From a virus: 24,019 nt of DNA. The stretch is taken from positions 1 through 24,019 of IMG/VR virus record IMGVR_UViG_3300021437_000083; one strand, given 5' to 3'. This document shows, in pieces, positions 15,353 through 24,019 of this stretch (position 1 is its first letter; each line of letters starts with the position of its first letter). Both the position numbers and the translations under genes were made by a program. Under the pieces are notes generated by a model, which was not told the DNA's origin, made no database searches, and worked only from the letters and a program-made list of their open reading frames with translations.

Positions 15353-15787
15353 TTAGTACTTACAAGTTTCCCAGCCTGCCAGGAAACATTGTTGTCCCTC
15401 TACCAAAGAGATCTTACCTGCACATACAAGTTTCTTAACTCTAGTCTCCAGAGCATCTTTTACGTGAGCACCAGAAGCTCCTACCCAAGATTGTATGGCT
15501 AGGTTCTCAATGTGGGATGGATGGCCGCCAACCTCCAGAGGAACTATATGATCTAGCTCGTACTGCGGGGCATCTTTCCAGGATAGACCTTTTGCTAACA
15601 ACTCTGCCTTTTTAATCGAGTTGGTGTAAGTTACAGAAGGCCGGATGGTTGCTGTGTAGCCGGAGGTACAGATAGTGCGGGAAATATTATCTTGGGTAAC
15701 AGCTGGGTTAGTGGAACCAACAGCGTAGGCAGATGCACAGGTTAGAGATGCTAGGGAGAGGGTGAGACTAGAAAGGAGAGTTTTCAT
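15353..15787 (-). CDS. Exported HNH-type nuclease
   Basis: 144 aa. Residues 1-22 are a textbook Sec signal peptide (MKTLLSSLTLSLASL, ending in AYA before VGS). The mature part carries YELDHIVPLEVGGHPSHIENL (76-96), an HNH/ββα-metal motif with H80 as candidate general base and N95 as metal-side residue, and H108 later. Four cysteines (C40, C122, C134, C142) suit disulphides in the periplasm. Related ELDHLIPLELGG proteins are known as small secreted bacterial HNH proteins. Start at 15787 is supported by AGGAT 7 nt upstream and lies 20 nt inside the terminase gene. Its unusual place between terminase and portal differs from the cytoplasmic packaging-associated HNH enzymes, which lack signal peptides. 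Whether it destroys extracellular or periplasmic DNA, including superinfecting genomes, is inference. Confidence 0.75.
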   Translation of the reverse strand: MKTLLSSLTLSLASLTCASAYAVGSTNPAVTQDNISRTICTSGYTATIRPSVTYTNSIKKAELLAKGLSWKDAPQYELDHIVPLEVGGHPSHIENLAIQSWVGASGAHVKDALETRVKKLVCAGKISLVEGQQCFLAGWETCKY

Positions 15788-17333: not shown

Positions 17334-17441
17334 TTATTTGGTTCTTTTGGAGAGCAGGAGCTGGATTCTGAGCAGTTGGTCCCGAGCTGCGGCCTTATTT
17401 CGCTGCTCTAATTCTGCTTTCTTAAGAACTTGTGCTAACAT
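17334..17441 (-). CDS. Basic helical mini-protein between small and large terminase genes, 35 aa
   Basis: A 36-codon frame (MLAQVLKKAELEQRNKAAAR, then DQLLRIQLLLSKRTK) fills the gap between the DNA-binding terminase gene and terL. It is preceded by AAGGAGG then 5 nt and ATG, the strongest Shine-Dalgarno in the window, and overlaps the upstream gene by 20 nt. Its stop is 6 nt before the terL start, which itself lacks a ribosome site. It may be a real small protein (basic, helical) or chiefly a translation-coupling leader for terL. The GGAGG lies in a run of Gly codons of the upstream gene, so chance is possible. Confidence 0.5.
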   Translation of the reverse strand: MLAQVLKKAELEQRNKAAARDQLLRIQLLLSKRTK

Positions 17442-17976
17442 TTCCGCCTCCTTGGAGTGTGGGAGAGCCGACATTTGGAACTCCTTTCATTTTCGCTAGT
17501 AACTTATCCATCGACGCAGATTGTACTGTAACCAGATCTTGTGCGCCAGCCTTAATTACCTGGTTATTTATATTAGTTGTGAAGTTTTGCAGGATTTGTG
17601 TCGGCATCAGGAGTTGCACGACAGTCTGCTGGGAAGTTATCGATTCTGGGGCAGATGATCCGCGCCTCTTAGCTCCATTAATTATCTGAATTGATTTTAG
17701 AATCTCCATCGGACGCATCATGTAGGGAAGGCAGTCTTTTAGTTTCGTAACTAACTGATCTTCGAGAGAGTCATAAGCGGCATCGCGCGTGTTGTGTTTC
17801 GCTAGATTCTCGAATCTTAGTTCCGCAACTTGTGATGCAAACTCGGGTTGTGATAGGAGCTGGGAGATGCGGGAGGTAGATACGCCTACAGCTGCCGCGA
17901 CTACTTCTGGTCCTAACCCTTGTCCTAGCAAGGTGAGGGCGCGAGATTCTGTAGAGGTTGTGGTGGATGAGGACAT
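17422..17976 (-). CDS. Terminase small subunit-like DNA-binding protein
   Basis: 184 aa. The N-terminus after a Ser/Thr-rich lead has a helix-turn-helix (about 20-42: LGPEVVAAAVGVSTSRISQL) then two helices (RFENLAKHNTRDAAYDSLED, QLVTKLKDCLPYM). The C-terminal third is Gly/Ser-rich and low complexity. Position directly upstream of terL, the first gene of the leftward operon, and the HTH-plus-helices plan match small terminases that recognise the packaging site; I do not recognise a specific subfamily. It could instead be a transcription factor of the late operon. A weak AAAGAAA lies before the ATG. Confidence 0.6.
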   Translation of the reverse strand: MSSSTTTSTESRALTLLGQGLGPEVVAAAVGVSTSRISQLLSQPEFASQVAELRFENLAKHNTRDAAYDSLEDQLVTKLKDCLPYMMRPMEILKSIQIINGAKRRGSSAPESITSQQTVVQLLMPTQILQNFTTNINNQVIKAGAQDLVTVQSASMDKLLAKMKGVPNVGSPTLQGGGNVSTSS

Positions 17977-18921: not shown

Positions 18922-19587
18922 ATGTCTACATTCTCTCAAGCTCACACAGTCACATTATTCGATGCGAAAAAATCTCAAGCATTGACCGGACAGCGGTTAG
19001 CGAAAGTAAGATATAAAACTACTGCCAAACAAGTTGCAAAGTTTCCCTCGGTTTGCGCCTCGGTGCCATTTCTCTCCCATGATGCTATCGAGGAAAGTAT
19101 TGCTGCTCTCTTACCTCATATTCGCTTGATGCTAGAAAATGCTCAAGATGGAGTTATTAGGAGCTTGTATGAGAGTTCCGAAGGTTCTCTGTCTCTTGTC
19201 ACTGATTCTGACATTTCTATCGCTGCTTGTATCGGTTTTCTGGAAACTGTAGAAGCTGGCACTAGGTTGACAAAAGAGTTTATTGAATCTTGGTTCTCCT
19301 CGAATGTGCAGGAGATGCTAGAAGCTGTAATTGTCGAGAAACTAAGTTTTGTAGGAGATAAAGAGTTGACACCAGAACAATCAGTTACGATCTCGAAACA
19401 TTGTAATGGTTACAAAGATTTGTACGCTAGTTTGGCCGGGGGAAAAACTATTCTGCAACCTACTCAAATTTCCTCGCTACTGAAAGTGCTAGATTTGGTT
19501 GATTCTGACGAGGTAGGAGATAAATTGAAAGCTCGATTAGTTTCGATGCAGAATAAACCTAAGATTGAGGAGTTGCTAGAGTTGTGA
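18922..19587 (+). CDS. Early protein of unknown function, 221 aa
   Basis: No signal peptide, TM segment or catalytic motif was found. The N-terminal 45 residues are basic (ALTGQRLAKVRYKTTAKQVA), the middle has acidic helices with few aromatic residues (AIEESIAALLPHIRLMLENA, SIAACIGFLETVEAG), and the end is a helical, charged segment (LDLVDSDEVGDKLKARLVSM). I do not recognise the family; a helical scaffold- or DNA-associated early protein is possible. It starts after CACAAGGATTCTATATC and ATG. It stands alone between leader A and the origin-like region, with mixed Leu codons (TTG, CTC, TTA, CTA), unlike the genes to its right. Confidence 0.7.
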   Translation: MSTFSQAHTVTLFDAKKSQALTGQRLAKVRYKTTAKQVAKFPSVCASVPFLSHDAIEESIAALLPHIRLMLENAQDGVIRSLYESSEGSLSLVTDSDISIAACIGFLETVEAGTRLTKEFIESWFSSNVQEMLEAVIVEKLSFVGDKELTPEQSVTISKHCNGYKDLYASLAGGKTILQPTQISSLLKVLDLVDSDEVGDKLKARLVSMQNKPKIEELLEL

Positions 19588-19655
19588 GATTTCACACCAG
19601 ATAAATAGCTAGATATATTCACTCGATAGTTATGTGACAGATAACTATTTAATTG

Positions 19656-19944
19656 ATTATAAGTTTCGACCCTCGAATAGTGACTATTTGACTTTTTGAC
19701 TTTTTGACTATTGACCCCGCGACCCGTTTTGACCCCCCCCTCGACCCCTCACCCATAATCTTTCTATCTCCTATAACTCCCATACTTCCTAGTATCTATC
19801 TATCTATCTATCTATCTACCTCCCATCTATCCACTACCTATCCTATATCTTATATATACCTACCACTTAAAAATTAGATACTAGATATGTATAGGGTATA
19901 TATATAGTATGTATATAGATAGATATATGTATATTATAAGTTTC
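19656..19944 (+). repeat. 12-bp direct repeat ATTATAAGTTTC
   Basis: Identical copies at 19656-19667 and 19933-19944, 277 bp apart. The second lies in the AT-rich core, the first just left of the outer inverted repeat. Confidence 0.6.
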
Positions 19945-20052
19945 TTATATTCTTATTATGATTTTAATTTTTAAGTGGGGGTTAAATATATACCGGGTGA
20001 TAGGTTATAACTCCCATACACTACTCGCTAGTTACTCTGGGTATGGGAGTTA
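19772..20052. repeat. Middle repeat TATAACTCCCATAC, two direct and one inverted copy
   Basis: TATAACTCCCATAC occurs at 19772-19785 and 20006-20019. The inverse GTATGGGAGTTA at 20041-20052 can pair with either; with the nearer copy it makes a 12-bp hairpin with a 21-nt loop. A degenerate inverse TATAGGAGTTAT follows at 20059-20070. Confidence 0.7.
19863..19978. repeat. Inner 14-bp perfect inverted repeat around the AT-rich core
   Basis: CCACTTAAAAATTA (19863-19876) and TAATTTTTAAGTGG (19965-19978) are perfect reverse complements 88 nt apart, bracketing a run of TATATA-type dinucleotide steps. It could extrude as a cruciform arm or mark the limits of an unwinding element. Confidence 0.75.
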
Positions 20053-20086
20053 CTGGTATATAGGAGTTATGTCTATAGGCCCGGGG

Positions 20087-20115
20087 TTGACCCACGACCG
20101 GGGGTGTGCTACCCT
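20087..20115 (+). promoter_or_regulatory. Candidate promoter of the right-arm operon
   Basis: TTGACC (20087-20092), 17-nt spacer, TACCCT (20110-20115). The -35 is good, the -10 weak (TA...T kept). The two 16-bp iterons begin right after the -10, so a protein bound there would cover the transcription start, allowing autoregulation. Confidence 0.3.
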
Positions 20116-20188
20116 ATGGTCAAATAGTCACTTGGTCAAATAGTCACTCGCCCTTCCCATAAACTTTCTAAACAAAGGAAACTAAGCT

Positions 20189-20359
20189 ATGCCTACAAAC
20201 TTCATACCCACACCAAACATAGTACCAGAGCTAACAAAATGGCTGCACTCATTCTCACACCTGCCCCTTGACTGGATAGTCTCCACATTAGGGGAGCAAG
20301 GTTTCACACGTGACGAGGTATCAGAAGCAATCAAAGGATATATAAATGACACAATCTAA
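20189..20359 (+). CDS. Small right-arm protein, 56 aa
   Basis: The frame MPTNFIPTPNIVPELTKWLH...LDWIVSTLGEQGFTRDEVSE...IKGYINDTI has good signs of being real: AAAGGAAAC upstream, phage-like codons (CTA, ATA, ACA), and a 14-nt overlap with the next gene. It looks like a Pro-rich head with a short helix-turn-helix-like pair of helices (about 27-51: DWIVSTLGEQGFTRDEVSEA). This could be a small DNA-binding or winged-helix-like early protein; the family is unknown. It is the first gene of the operon that continues into the helicase, directly after the iterons. Confidence 0.65.
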   Translation: MPTNFIPTPNIVPELTKWLHSFSHLPLDWIVSTLGEQGFTRDEVSEAIKGYINDTI

Positions 20360-20783
20360 CTCTGGCGCGCCTGCTAAGTATCGCCCGTATTTCATAGCAT
20401 CGCAGATACAAGAGATACTAAGATGCTTAAAAACTAGCTCTACTGATTATGATCTGATAAGATACCTAGAAACATTTTCAGCTAAGATAGAGTTTGGTAC
20501 AGTATCTTTTCATAAGCCTACACCTAGACACCTCTCAGGCTCACAAGATTCTATACAAGATTCTCAACCTACCCCTAGTCTACCAACTGATGTACCCTAC
20601 TCAGTAACCAGAGAGCGCCTATATAAACGCTGGCTAGATTCCCCAGAGAATCTAACATCCTATCAGCTAGAGCAGGTATCTATCTATCGATATGAGAATG
20701 ATATGATGACGCCTGACGAGGAGATAGGATATGTAGAAGCTCTGGCGCGAGCAGAAACAAAAGATATGTATGTAGGGAAATAG
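20346..20783 (+). CDS. Right-arm protein of unknown function, 145 aa
   Basis: No recognised family. The N-terminal ~50 residues are helical (PYFIASQIQEILRCLKTSST), residues ~58-83 are Pro/Ser/Thr/Gln-rich and probably disordered, and the C-terminal ~60 are helical with many Tyr/Glu/Arg (RERLYKRWLDSPENLTSYQL, EEIGYVEALARAETKDM). The start is preceded by AAAGGATATATAA. It overlaps the 56-aa gene by 14 nt, consistent with coupled expression. A disordered linker between two helical parts suggests an adaptor or regulatory role, but nothing more can be said. Confidence 0.65.
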   Translation: MTQSNSGAPAKYRPYFIASQIQEILRCLKTSSTDYDLIRYLETFSAKIEFGTVSFHKPTPRHLSGSQDSIQDSQPTPSLPTDVPYSVTRERLYKRWLDSPENLTSYQLEQVSIYRYENDMMTPDEEIGYVEALARAETKDMYVGK

Positions 20784-20794
20784 GAGATATAGAT

Positions 20795-20935
20795 ATGTTT
20801 ACACTTACTGGATTGATACTATCATTTATACTAGCTGGAATGTTTCCAGTAGATACAGCCCCGAACCCAAGCCCGACCTATGAGACACATGAGACACCTA
20901 CACAGACTGATAAACCTAGCATTACTAATAACTAA
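20795..20935 (+). CDS. Small secreted or membrane-anchored peptide, 46 aa
   Basis: MFTLTGLILSFILAGMFPVD then a Pro/Thr/Glu-rich polar tail (TAPNPSPTYETHETPTQTDK...). The first ~17 residues form one hydrophobic helix without a preceding charge or a lipobox Cys; the rest is soluble and disordered. The ATG follows TAGGAG by 8 nt, a good ribosome site, and the gene starts 11 nt after the previous stop. Possibly an inner-membrane peptide with an exposed tail, such as an exclusion or host-takeover factor; function is unknown. Confidence 0.55.
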   Translation: MFTLTGLILSFILAGMFPVDTAPNPSPTYETHETPTQTDKPSITNN

Positions 20936-20987
20936 CCTAATGATACTAATCATACTAACTTATTTATATGTCCACACCCACATCTAA
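20880..20987 (+). CDS. Candidate overlapping TM micropeptide, 35 aa
   Basis: In the +1 frame relative to the 46-aa gene: MRHMRHLHRLINLALLITNL, then MILIILTYLYVHTHI. A basic His/Arg head precedes a 20-residue hydrophobic helix made of the CTA/ATA codons typical of this arm. It overlaps the end of the 46-aa gene by 56 nt and the start of the next by 20 nt, so it fills an otherwise empty gap. No Shine-Dalgarno is seen, which is the main weakness; translation would need coupling. It might be a chance frame. Confidence 0.35.
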   Translation: MRHMRHLHRLINLALLITNLMILIILTYLYVHTHI

Positions 20988-21165
20988 AACATCCTCCAAA
21001 ACATCTAAAGCATCCAGAGTATCTAACCGACACCTATCCTGGCTAGATCATGCATTCCGGCATTTCTCAGATTCTTATTCACCTACATACGATACTTGCA
21101 TCGACCAAAGAGACGAGCACCTAATGTATCTATGCCTACTATCTCACATAGGCGCTTTTTCGTAG
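20968..21165 (+). CDS. Small right-arm protein, 65 aa
   Basis: A Ser/Thr/Lys-rich basic N-terminus (STPTSKTSSKTSKASRVSNR) is followed by a short ordered part (HLSWLDHAFRHFSDSYSPTY, IDQRDEHLMYLCLLSHIG). Codon use (TCC, ACA, CTA) agrees with its neighbours. There is no visible Shine-Dalgarno; translation may be coupled to the overlapping micropeptide. The basic tail suggests nucleic-acid contact, but this is guesswork. It is the last gene before leader B. Confidence 0.5.
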   Translation: MSTPTSKTSSKTSKASRVSNRHLSWLDHAFRHFSDSYSPTYDTCIDQRDEHLMYLCLLSHIGAFS

Positions 21166-21184
21166 TTCCTGAGAGATATTCTCC

Positions 21185-21233
21185 ATATATACACCCCTAG
21201 GAAAGCTGGTGTATATATTGGGAAACCTCCCAC
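21185..21233 (+). promoter_or_regulatory. Two-hairpin leader B upstream of the 338-aa gene
   Basis: ATATATACACC (21185-21195) pairs perfectly over 11 bp with GGTGTATATAT (21208-21218), loop 12 nt, followed by TGGGA-AACC-TCCCA. AAGGAT and the ATG at 21270 follow after ~35 nt. A small hairpin GAGA-GATAT-TCTC (21171-21183) precedes it. The plan repeats leader A although the arms differ in sequence, so the structure rather than the sequence appears conserved. No U-run follows. Confidence 0.55.
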
Positions 21234-21269
21234 ACTGTAACTAACCATTGTAACCAAGGATACTATCAT

Positions 21270-22286
21270 ATGAAAATACTATGCTCTATATCTGGTATAG
21301 AGTTCACTTGTGAACACTTCCCAGCTTATCTATCCGCGAGAGAAATAGCTCACCCAATATTCTCTCTACCCCAGAAGAAACTACTATCTTACCTAGGTAA
21401 GTGGTCCTCCTCGGAGCTAACACCAACCGATTCTTACCTACTATTCCTATCTATCCTAAATTCCTCCTCCCTAGTAGAATTCAGAGTGCCAGTTACCCGC
21501 ACTCACCTGACTGATTCTCTAGTTGCTCAAAACATGGAGGGGTTATCCAAAATCGTATCTCGTATAAATGCAGTAACATCACCTGCCGCAGTATTCCCTC
21601 GCTATGTAGTCTCACCTGATACTAAAACCCTAGATAACATATCAGCTTGGATAGAGAATTGGGAAGAAGCATGGCAAGATTTCCAAGATGGATATGCTAG
21701 AGAGTACGAGTCCAGGAAACTAATAACCCGCGAGGCTGCACTAGAGCGATTGATTAAGAATCCACACCTACCAGTATCTGCTTATGCATCTAAGATAGCA
21801 GACTGGGCGGCGATAGCAGGTAACTTCCCAGGGTATCTAATTACCTCACCATTCTCAGGACTAAAAATATCTATGTCAGATTACTGGAAAGATATTATCC
21901 AAAGATGTTCCAGAGAAGAATCTATCTTCGCTGTCCCTCAAGTAGATATACAAGACCTACTAGACCACTGCGAAACTAACATATCTATCGGGACTATCTG
22001 GTCTAACTCTCTCTTTAAGGTTCTGAGAAATGCAATAACTAAACAGCGTAACTTCCTAGGCCTAGGAGATATGGACCTATCCCGTTCTAAGTTTCGTATC
22101 CTATCTGAAGATGATACAACCGAGACAGCTAACATTAAGGCCATGATAGATTCTGCACCAGAGCATGAACCATCACTAGAGCAGTACCCAAATAAGATAG
22201 CTTATCTAAAAGCTAAACTACGCTGGCAGATGGCTAAGAAATATGGTACTCCCCCAGCTACACAGGAAGATGGAGATATAGTATGA
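21270..22286 (+). CDS. Right-arm protein of unknown function, 338 aa
   Basis: No family recognised. The first ~90 residues contain two short Cys (C5, C14) and hydrophobic stretches (PIFSLPQKKLLSYLGKW, SYLLFLSILNSSSLVEFRVP) but no true TM helix. Residues 130-170 are helical and Trp-rich (AWIENWEEAWQDFQDGYARE). Near residues 245-265 is SLFKVLRNAITKQRNFLGLG, and the end is acidic and helical, finishing in QLEQ..PNKIAYLKAKLRWQ. Start follows AAGGATACTATCAT. The stop overlaps the next gene's ATG (ATGA). Its position immediately before a helicase suggests a replication or recombination role; a helicase loader is a guess only. Confidence 0.6.
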   Translation: MKILCSISGIEFTCEHFPAYLSAREIAHPIFSLPQKKLLSYLGKWSSSELTPTDSYLLFLSILNSSSLVEFRVPVTRTHLTDSLVAQNMEGLSKIVSRINAVTSPAAVFPRYVVSPDTKTLDNISAWIENWEEAWQDFQDGYAREYESRKLITREAALERLIKNPHLPVSAYASKIADWAAIAGNFPGYLITSPFSGLKISMSDYWKDIIQRCSREESIFAVPQVDIQDLLDHCETNISIGTIWSNSLFKVLRNAITKQRNFLGLGDMDLSRSKFRILSEDDTTETANIKAMIDSAPEHEPSLEQYPNKIAYLKAKLRWQMAKKYGTPPATQEDGDIV

Positions 22287-22639
22287 CCAACACCTCTGGA
22301 CAACAGATAAACTTACTAGATGACTTCGCCGCCCTAGTAGTAGACTACCAAGCGGCTGAAAGAATCGAGACACAATTCTATCTGTCACCTACCTTTGTAG
22401 CTTCTCAGCTAGAAAAGTACTATCTCCTACGCTGGCAAGGTGATTACCTAATATCTAAGGTAGATACTTGTCTAGGTATCCGCCCAGATACCCTAACCCA
22501 TCAAGACACAGTCTACCATCTAAGATATATAGCTCTTACACCTTATGATCTAGTAGCTAATCAAGATGCACAATATAAACTATCATTTAGAAAGCATAAG
22601 AACTCCCAGACTGGTGTAGTTCTAATTAAGAAAGTGTAA
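22283..22639 (+). CDS. Right-arm protein of unknown function, 118 aa
   Basis: Alternating aromatic and charged segments (INLLDDFAALVVDYQAAERI, VASQLEKYYLLRWQGDYLIS, RYIALTPYDLVANQDAQYKL, a basic FRKHKNSQTGVVLIKKV end). It is small and probably alpha/beta; I do not recognise a family. It overlaps the 338-aa gene by 4 nt and the helicase starts 1 nt after its stop, so the three are one translational unit. A helicase partner or single-strand DNA handling role is inferred from context alone. Confidence 0.6.
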   Translation: MTNTSGQQINLLDDFAALVVDYQAAERIETQFYLSPTFVASQLEKYYLLRWQGDYLISKVDTCLGIRPDTLTHQDTVYHLRYIALTPYDLVANQDAQYKLSFRKHKNSQTGVVLIKKV

Positions 22640-22640
22640 T

Positions 22641-24019
22641 ATGTCCCCCACACCTACCACGATAACCAAAACTAGGTTACAAGAGATTGTAGCTAAGATG
22701 CGAGCAGATAAGCTAGCTGCCCAAAAAGCATCACAAGTTCCAGAGCCGACACCAAACCCTGAACATACCGGCAATGCTGCAGGTGCCACAGATAAGAATG
22801 GTAACCTTATCTCCTACAACTCCAAGCAACAAGAGTTTGTATCTCTAGCATCTACCGGTGCATCATGTGTTCTTATCGGTGCCGCAGGTACAGGTAAAAC
22901 AACCTGTATGAAAGGTACAGTATCTACCCTAATCGACTCTGGTTTCTTAGGTCTTCTACAAGCCGAGGGACACAAACACCTATCTACAAACTCCCCAGGT
23001 ATTGCTATCTGCGCCTATACTCGCCGCGCAGCTAATAATATACGAAAGAATCTGTCCTTAGATGTGCAATCTAACTGTATCACAATCCATAAACTCATAG
23101 AGTATACACCTGTATACTATGCGGTAGTAGATGAGGCTACGGGTACTGAGAAAACTAAGATGTGTTTCGAGCCTACAAGAAACCAAGCTAACCCGCTACC
23201 AACATCTATCAAAACCATCATATTCGAGGAATCTTCTATGATAGGTACTGATCTATACAAGGAAGTTATAGCAGCTTGCCCGCACCGACCCCAACTAATC
23301 TTCCTAGGAGATATTCAGCAACTCCCGCCTGTCTTCGGACCTGCTATCTTAGGTTTCAAACTCCTATCTCTCCCGGTAGTTGAACTAACCGATGTCTACC
23401 GGCAGGCTTTAGAATCTCCTATCATAGCTCTAGCCCACCGTATTCTTTCAGGCAAACCTATCCCGCATAGAGAGTATGCAGATTGGAAGAAACCAGATCA
23501 GCTAACTATACATGCATGGAAAAAGAAGATCTCTGCGCAAGATGCTCTATCTACTGCAGGACAGTTCTTTATAGCAGCTGAAAAATCTGGAGCTTATGAC
23601 CCTGAGGAAGATATGATCCTCCTGCCATTCAATAAGTCTTTCGGAACTATTGAACTAAACAAGATCATAGCTAACCATCTCTCTAAGAAACGAGGTGTTG
23701 ATACCTATGAGATAGTTACAGGATTCTTTAGACACTACTTCAGTGTAGGAGATAAGGTGCTATATGAAAAGGAAGATGCTGAGATTGTTAAGATCGAAAC
23801 TAACCCAGCCTACTCTGGAGCTAAGTGTCTTCCACACTCTCCAACACTAGATTACTGGGGATATGATCCTGTAACTAAGATACCTGACACAGCTAACCCT
23901 GATGATTCTAGCCAAGCAGATGTAGATTTCCTGCTATCCCAAGTAGCAGCCTCAGATCAGGAGCGTGTACATCAAGCATCACACACTCTCCATCTAAAGA
24001 TGCTAGACTCTGAGCAGAT
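22641..24019 (+). CDS. RecD/Dda-like SF1 helicase, C-terminally cut by window end
   Basis: At least 459 residues from ATG at 22641, open to the end of the window. A low-complexity N-terminus (1-55) precedes a helicase core: Q-motif-like YNSKQQEFV (59-67), Walker A GAAGTGKT (80-87), motif Ia CAYTRRAA (124-131), Walker B IIFEESSM (193-200, with Glu-Glu instead of Asp-Glu), motif III LGDIQQLPP (222-230) and the following DVYRQ. These are the marks of the AAA_30/RecD-Dda group, 5'-3' DNA helicases used in phage replication and recombination. The later motifs V and VI lie beyond the window. The unit is downstream of two unknown genes in a coupled operon. Confidence 0.85.
   Translation, partial: MSPTPTTITKTRLQEIVAKMRADKLAAQKASQVPEPTPNPEHTGNAAGATDKNGNLISYNSKQQEFVSLASTGASCVLIGAAGTGKTTCMKGTVSTLIDSGFLGLLQAEGHKHLSTNSPGIAICAYTRRAANNIRKNLSLDVQSNCITIHKLIEYTPVYYAVVDEATGTEKTKMCFEPTRNQANPLPTSIKTIIFEESSMIGTDLYKEVIAACPHRPQLIFLGDIQQLPPVFGPAILGFKLLSLPVVELTDVYRQALESPIIALAHRILSGKPIPHREYADWKKPDQLTIHAWKKKISAQDALSTAGQFFIAAEKSGAYDPEEDMILLPFNKSFGTIELNKIIANHLSKKRGVDTYEIVTGFFRHYFSVGDKVLYEKEDAEIVKIETNPAYSGAKCLPHSPTLDYWGYDPVTKIPDTANPDDSSQADVDFLLSQVAASDQERVHQASHTLHLKMLDSEQ

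Follow-up and report, generated by a model that had tools for sequence, protein, structure and literature searches.

Mirrored arrays of 8-bp units around an AT-rich core at the early promoter of an apparently uncultured phage clade: a candidate control site and possible replication origin

The sequence analysed here, called the window below, is the whole 24,019-base viral contig IMGVR_UViG_3300021437_000083 (positions 1-24,019). Its leftward structural genes end with the gene for the large terminase (phrog_38), and a putative small terminase (17422-17976) was assigned by its position and its homology to the annotated small terminase of Tiera. After the terminases the genes run rightward: gpA (18601), gpB (18922-19587, plus strand, encoding a 221-aa protein), the repeat region described in this work, and the early genes (20189-24017, plus strand). 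The early block starts with two small ORFs (20189-20359 and 20346-20783, both plus strand), followed by gpG (21270-22286, plus strand) and a superfamily-1-like helicase matching Pfam AAA_19/AAA_30 (22641 onward, plus strand), which is open at the contig end. An earlier note, made by a model from the letters alone, had placed the repeats between two rightward gene blocks upstream of a helicase, and this context was borne out. A small ORF that directly follows the large terminase gene (15353-15787) has weak similarity to HNH nucleases (E 0.044).

The nearest annotated phages by terminase share 33-36% identity with the window and are Aeromonas phage P5, the Pseudomonas PaP2/119X/PaMx41 group, which belongs to Fredfastierviridae, Jamesmcgillvirus, and Polaromonas phage Tiera. 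The sequence comparisons suggest that the region is carried by a podovirus-like phage clade that is a distant kin of Fredfastierviridae (PaP2/119X). Because neither gpB nor gpG had a match in the cultured phage records searched, the clade appears to be uncultured. Similarly, gpG was not found in the plasmids searched, nor gpB in the genome contigs searched. One distant gpG relative (L132, 27% identity) comes from the MAG of a Thermoprotei archaeon, where its 4.7-kb contig may be viral or wrongly binned.

Two arrays of 8-bp units lie at the two sides of the region. The left array (19679-19711, plus strand) is made of four units GACTNNNN, with GAC at 19682, 19690, 19698 and 19706, and the right array (20116-20148, minus strand) is its inverse, with GTC at 20119, 20127, 20135 and 20143. 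What had been described as an outer repeat pair, AGTGACTATTTGAC (19679-19692) and its two inverted copies (20119-20132, 20135-20148), is present in all its copies, but its anatomy is that of two inverted arrays of 8-bp units. The exact 16-bp tandem reported at the right end (20117-20148) is likewise there and is in fact two pairs of such units. The repeats lie far outside what chance would give. The interval 19626-20148 contains 11 exact inverted 12-mers, whereas 300 shuffles yielded 0.04 on average and never more than 3, and its three exact inverted 14-mers have no counterpart in shuffles. The best imperfect inverted pair reaches a score of 18.0, and the highest among 100 shuffles was 12.5. 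As folding of the region without the outer arrays gave a weak signal in the window (z -0.75), it is the outer arrays that bear most of the statistical weight.

Inside the arrays, the middle repeats TATAACTCCCATAC (19772-19785) and GTATGGGAGTTA (20041-20052) and the inner repeats CCACTTAAAAATTA (19863-19876) and TAATTTTTAAGTGG (19965-19978) were found as well, so that every repeat named in the earlier note was located where it had been placed. The inner repeats bracket the AT-rich core (19863-19978). The middle repeats share the motif GGAGTTA, whose left copy is TATAACTCCCATAC on the minus strand and of which three further copies lie in 20006-20070, at 20006-20019 (minus strand), at 20041-20052 (plus strand) and, in degenerate form, at about 20060-20070 (plus strand). 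The proposed nesting of concentric pairs holds for the repeats themselves but not for a single concentric middle pair, since the extra copies of the middle family also make a local hairpin and exact concentricity is partly a choice of which copies are paired. Between the left array and the core runs a C-rich, G-poor tract (19713-19862, plus strand; skew -0.60 to -0.67 in 100-bp windows), which contains a (TCTA)n tetranucleotide run at 19793-19820. A relative encoding an identical gpB (L011) ends about at this run, probably through an assembly break. A hairpin, ATAGTTATGTG-A-CAGATAACTAT (19626-19648, plus strand), opens the reported interval 3' of gpB and is not significant in the window.

To place these features in a family context, relatives were collected by IMG/VR scans with gpG and gpB, using single sequences and alignments, which gave about 40 loci. 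About 45 uncultured relatives, all of them encoding gpB, share the inverted-array architecture in the same order (gpB, array, C-rich tract, AT-rich core, second half, promoter, mirrored array, early genes), with the arms about 200-470 bp apart. Of 36 regions, 30 had a best inverted repeat within 900 bp that exceeded the best from all 15 dinucleotide shuffles, one of them (L030) through a pair other than the arrays; the remaining six (L025, L026, L031, L035, L038 and L049) did not. An 8-bp period was seen in 30/32 left arrays and 28/32 right arrays, array self-identity being 0.75 at lag 8 versus 0.32-0.40 at lags 5-7 and 9-12. The unit sequences themselves vary widely between phages, as in GACTAATT, AGACCGTC, AACCAATT and ATGCCAGA.

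The two arrays of one phage match each other. Across 32 phages, left/right complementarity averaged 18.6 within the own genome versus 10.4 between genomes, and none of 100,000 permutations was as good, a figure that is not a strict probability because the 32 phages share descent and because four divergent relatives in which no promoter was placeable (L049, L057, L058 and L061) were excluded. Kinship alone would not bring two loci of the same genome into agreement. Repeat position, orientation, 8-bp period and pairing are thus kept in the relatives, whereas unit and intervening sequences are not. By the test that the earlier note had set, conservation of repeat positions but not of intervening sequence, the outcome speaks for an array bound by protein. 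Three-unit GAC/GTC arrays are confined to this locus in the near-complete relatives, bar one chance match in G001. The region is real and conserved and, judged by its evolution, functional. Among individual relatives, a 43.8-kb contig (L118:4540-4681) has two array copies on one side, 121 bp apart, and in L029 and L039 the complementarity of the arm ends extends past the 8-bp units (AATCTTGTCC/GGACAAGATT versus AATCTTTCC/GGAAAGATT), with matched changes on both sides.

The inner features are kept to different degrees. Across the inner regions of the 32 phages, GGAGTTA/T was counted 25 times where 2.1 were expected; it is found in 13 of the phages, mostly on the plus strand right of the core and on the minus strand left of it. 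By these counts and orientations, the middle pair belongs to another family of sites, set in mirror orientation and present in part of the clade. Of the inner pair, it is mainly the right arm (ATTTTTAAGTGGGG-like) beside the AT-rich core that is kept. Every interval between the arrays holds a 30-bp stretch of 70-100% A+T, which reaches at least 83% and lies near the middle in most relatives. The DNA left of the core is C-rich in nearly all relatives, and that right of the core is G-rich in many. In the segment between gpB and the left array, a hairpin stronger than in shuffles (z below -2) was found in 21/32 phages, some with T-runs, and gpB transcripts may therefore stop before the left array. 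Clear intrinsic terminators occupy the hairpin position in L031, L033 and L056. The GTGACAG loop of the hairpin is kept in the window, L003 and L008, where the stems are altered yet still pairing.

Complementary arrays could also act as RNA, the left array in the gpB transcript pairing with the right array in the leader of the early mRNA, and the region does fold better than shuffles (z -5.0 on the plus strand, -3.4 on the minus strand). However, the arm mismatches that would be G-U numbered 54 on the plus strand versus 65 on the minus strand (p=0.36), neither strand showing an excess of G-U over A-C, and this absence of strand bias is more in keeping with a DNA-binding protein that reads the two arrays than with an RNA stem. 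The RNA reading is further opposed by the hairpins, some with T-runs, that often stand between gpB and the left array, by unit order being swapped between the arms in some phages and by the lack of any Rfam match; we regard it as extremely improbable. The swap of two units between the arms of L024 would suit interchangeable protein sites, and the combination of a fixed pitch with a changeable sequence would suit proteins bound side by side in a rigid geometry.

A blind scan pointed to gpB as a companion of the arrays. A pattern for the commonest unit (RGTCTRRCRGTCTRRCRGTCT) was run against 2.9 million IMG/VR viral contigs and matched 37, of which 21 encode gpB (nine of these were already in our set and some others are near-identical). 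An inverted partner 240-400 bp away (score at least 11) was present in 18/18 gpB contigs with enough flank and in 0/16 contigs without gpB (score at most 9). Arrays and gpB go together. Since gpB is always adjacent to the arrays, lying directly upstream of the left one in the relatives, and always accompanies them, it is the positional candidate for the protein that would read both, although one without a recognisable DNA-binding fold. It belongs to no PHROG family and to no Pfam family above the cut-off. Its AlphaFold model (pLDDT 83.7, pTM 0.51) has two strands followed by helices and, when compared by Foldseek with PDB and viral models, had no hit at E<0.001; the gpG model had none in PDB at that threshold. 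VIA-align Z values of 5.5 or less linked gpB to helical phycobiliproteins, a likeness that we took as a common helical arrangement and set aside.

Other candidate binding proteins were sought among the early genes. No ribbon-helix-helix, ParA/ParB or Rep family was found among about 60 early proteins scanned from the window and its relatives, the Pfam cut-off for ribbon-helix-helix being E<0.05, which divergent small proteins could escape. A ParA-type ATPase was likewise absent from the scanned early proteins of G001, G005 and others. A family-A polymerase is encoded in 12/12 of the relatives' records, and relatives also encode a DUF3987 helicase-like protein, a Sak4-like protein and an exonuclease. 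In two close relatives, L004 (3525-4184) and L009 (3145-3888), the protein encoded by the first early gene beyond the right array has a long Ala-rich repeat tail (AAYAANAA...), whose length differs between them.

A sigma70-type early promoter, TTGACC-N17-TACCCT (20087-20115, plus strand), had been missed in the earlier note. Its -10 touches the right array, which begins at the -10/+1. In relatives the -35 is TTGACA in 26/31 and the spacing 17 in 25/31, and A2 and T6 of the -10 are present in 31/31, an invariance that is partly by construction, placement having been guided by the consensus. In all phages with a placeable promoter, the right array lies on it. A mirror promoter at the left array was considered and rejected (score 6.2 versus 6.4 in shuffled sequence; the right side scores 9.4). 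We also discarded an invertible promoter switch: the promoter points in the same direction in every relative where it could be placed, and the arms are imperfect copies.

The overlap of array and promoter raises the possibility of a pure transcription switch, in which a repressor or immunity protein would bridge a proximal and a distal operator, with no role in replication and with the core as flexible DNA only. The arrays are unique to this locus, the left one has no promoter of its own, and the right one overlaps the -10/+1 wherever the promoter was placeable. A repressor would moreover be expected in the wider group, because the PaP2-type phage Shea shows superinfection resistance (PMC13348215). 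This explanation leaves unaccounted for the near-midpoint AT-rich core and the shift from C-rich to G-rich DNA in many relatives, and we hold it to be a real possibility that falls well short of an even chance.

The evidence for an origin is mixed. The region had been put forward as a novel phage origin, and the AT-rich core near the middle agrees with this; the skew sign, the DnaA boxes and the initiator do not. A change in the sign of cumulative GC skew had been predicted at the site, but the cumulative minimum falls there in none of nine relatives, and in 5/9 of these relatives (41-46 kb) it is the maximum, with a terminus-like sign, that lies within 1.4 kb, GC skew being a weak guide in phages, where divergent transcription confounds it. 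The minimum of PaP2 is 2.3 kb away. A DnaA box (TTWTNCACA) was found in 0/32 regions and an IHF site in only 1/32; not all phage origins have DnaA boxes. Measured against iteron origins, the locus has tandem 8-bp units that are present and conserved, and no initiator was identified among the proteins scanned. Measured against ribbon-helix-helix operators or centromeres, it has contiguous 8-bp units overlapping a promoter, where units of 7-8 bp are expected. Shea persists unintegrated as an episome (PMC13348215), which makes a maintenance origin plausible in the wider group. The overlap of the right array with the early promoter, seen wherever the promoter could be placed, speaks for transcriptional control no less directly than the other findings speak for an origin, and the two roles are compatible.

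The episomal state of Shea would also suit a partition (centromere-like) site resembling the promoter-overlapping heptad arrays of pSM19035, as short tandem non-palindromic units, direct and inverted and set on a promoter, typify the sites of ribbon-helix-helix ParB proteins (PMC9499535; PMC5016525). Such a role seems improbable, because each array has only three to four units and the scan of early proteins turned up neither a ParA-like nor a ribbon-helix-helix protein. A packaging or genome-end site read by terminase is very improbable. The small terminase gene is near, and the records of PaP2, 119X and most PaMx phages start in the equivalent interval, but other PaP2-type records (20Aug470, FBPa48, Neko) run straight through it, the relatives' contigs cross the site, as do three circular assemblies (127-bp end overlap), and packaging would have no need of an early promoter at one arm. 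We rejected the PaP2-type phages as cultured counterparts of the site: their inverted pairs score 10.5-12.5 versus shuffle maxima of 10.5-13, and PaP2 p01 and p56, at the positions of gpB and gpG, had no match to the gpB/gpG profiles and are not detectably homologous. CCAAGGT-like repeats do lie on both sides of the equivalent interval in PaP2 (L015, 1-450 and 43300-43783) and its relatives L090-L094.

Several known systems resemble the site in part. The Omega/parS system of pSM19035 uses a ribbon-helix-helix ParB and contiguous 7-bp non-palindromic units, direct and inverted, that overlap the promoters of replication and maintenance genes (PMC9499535). Both systems have short contiguous units, direct and inverted, overlapping a promoter, but the phage site has an 8-bp pitch and two separate mirror arrays round an AT-rich core, its units vary between phages, and no ribbon-helix-helix or ParA gene was found among the early genes scanned. 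The ParG/parH-OF sites and the met boxes of MetJ have an 8-bp pitch and ACTC boxes. In plasmid TP228, ParG/parH-OF combines direct and inverted repeats with AT-rich spacers (PMC5016525). The phage arrays resemble the ParG and MetJ sites in having tandem units near or on promoters and, in some phages, a four-base core with an AT-rich spacer (GACT-AATT); unlike them, they come as mirrored arms 200-470 bp apart, and no homologous protein was detected.

Phage P4 pairs its ori with crr, two sites that are kilobases apart and not known to be placed on the early promoter as here. The P4 repeats are bound by the winged helix of the alpha protein (PMC4234260). Short iterons at two sites (whose cooperation is proposed here), AT-rich DNA and a phage-encoded helicase are common to both, whereas the helicase of the present clade is of DUF3987 type and binding of repeats by the alpha protein is a feature of P4. 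The iterons of plasmid and lambda-type phage origins are usually 17-22 bp. Like those origins, the site has repeated putative binding sites beside AT-rich DNA and a promoter; unlike them, its arrays are mirrored and lack DnaA boxes, and no Rep protein was identified among the proteins scanned. The resemblances to pSM19035, ParG and P4 are analogies and not memberships. By such analogy, the site would be of the paired iteron/operator kind, in an uncultured phage clade, with features not seen in the systems compared.

We favour a model, to which we give somewhat less than an even chance, where a bridged nucleoprotein site controls the early promoter and probably also serves as the origin, one phage protein binding both arrays. 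In this model, a single phage-encoded protein would bind the tandem 8-bp units of both arrays. Bound at the right array, it would lie over the -10/+1 of the early promoter and control that promoter, perhaps by repression. Copies bound at the left array, which is mirrored and lies 200-470 bp upstream, might be bridged to those on the right into a DNA loop that would hold the AT-rich core between the arrays. The assembly could also open the core, making it an origin for the clade's helicase, DUF3987 ATPase and family-A polymerase. The parts that the model joins (the arrays, their pitch and pairing, the promoter overlap, the core and the family-wide conservation) are observed features. A more specific version, in which the mirrored 8-bp-pitch arrays are a combined origin and early-gene switch read by gpB through a new fold, the recognition sequence having been replaced repeatedly while pitch, number, mirror orientation and left-right match were kept, is in our estimate unlikely as a whole.

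The region would thus represent a control site, possibly an origin, for a clade of which the records searched contain no cultured member, and it adjoins the strictly linked gpB with its unmatched fold. The matched drift of the two arrays would be a natural record of the coevolution of binding sites and their protein at a fixed geometry, and the matched arrays predict the binding motif of each phage directly from its sequence. If the origin part of the model is true, the site is relevant to the way in which episomal (pseudolysogenic) podoviruses initiate and maintain replication.
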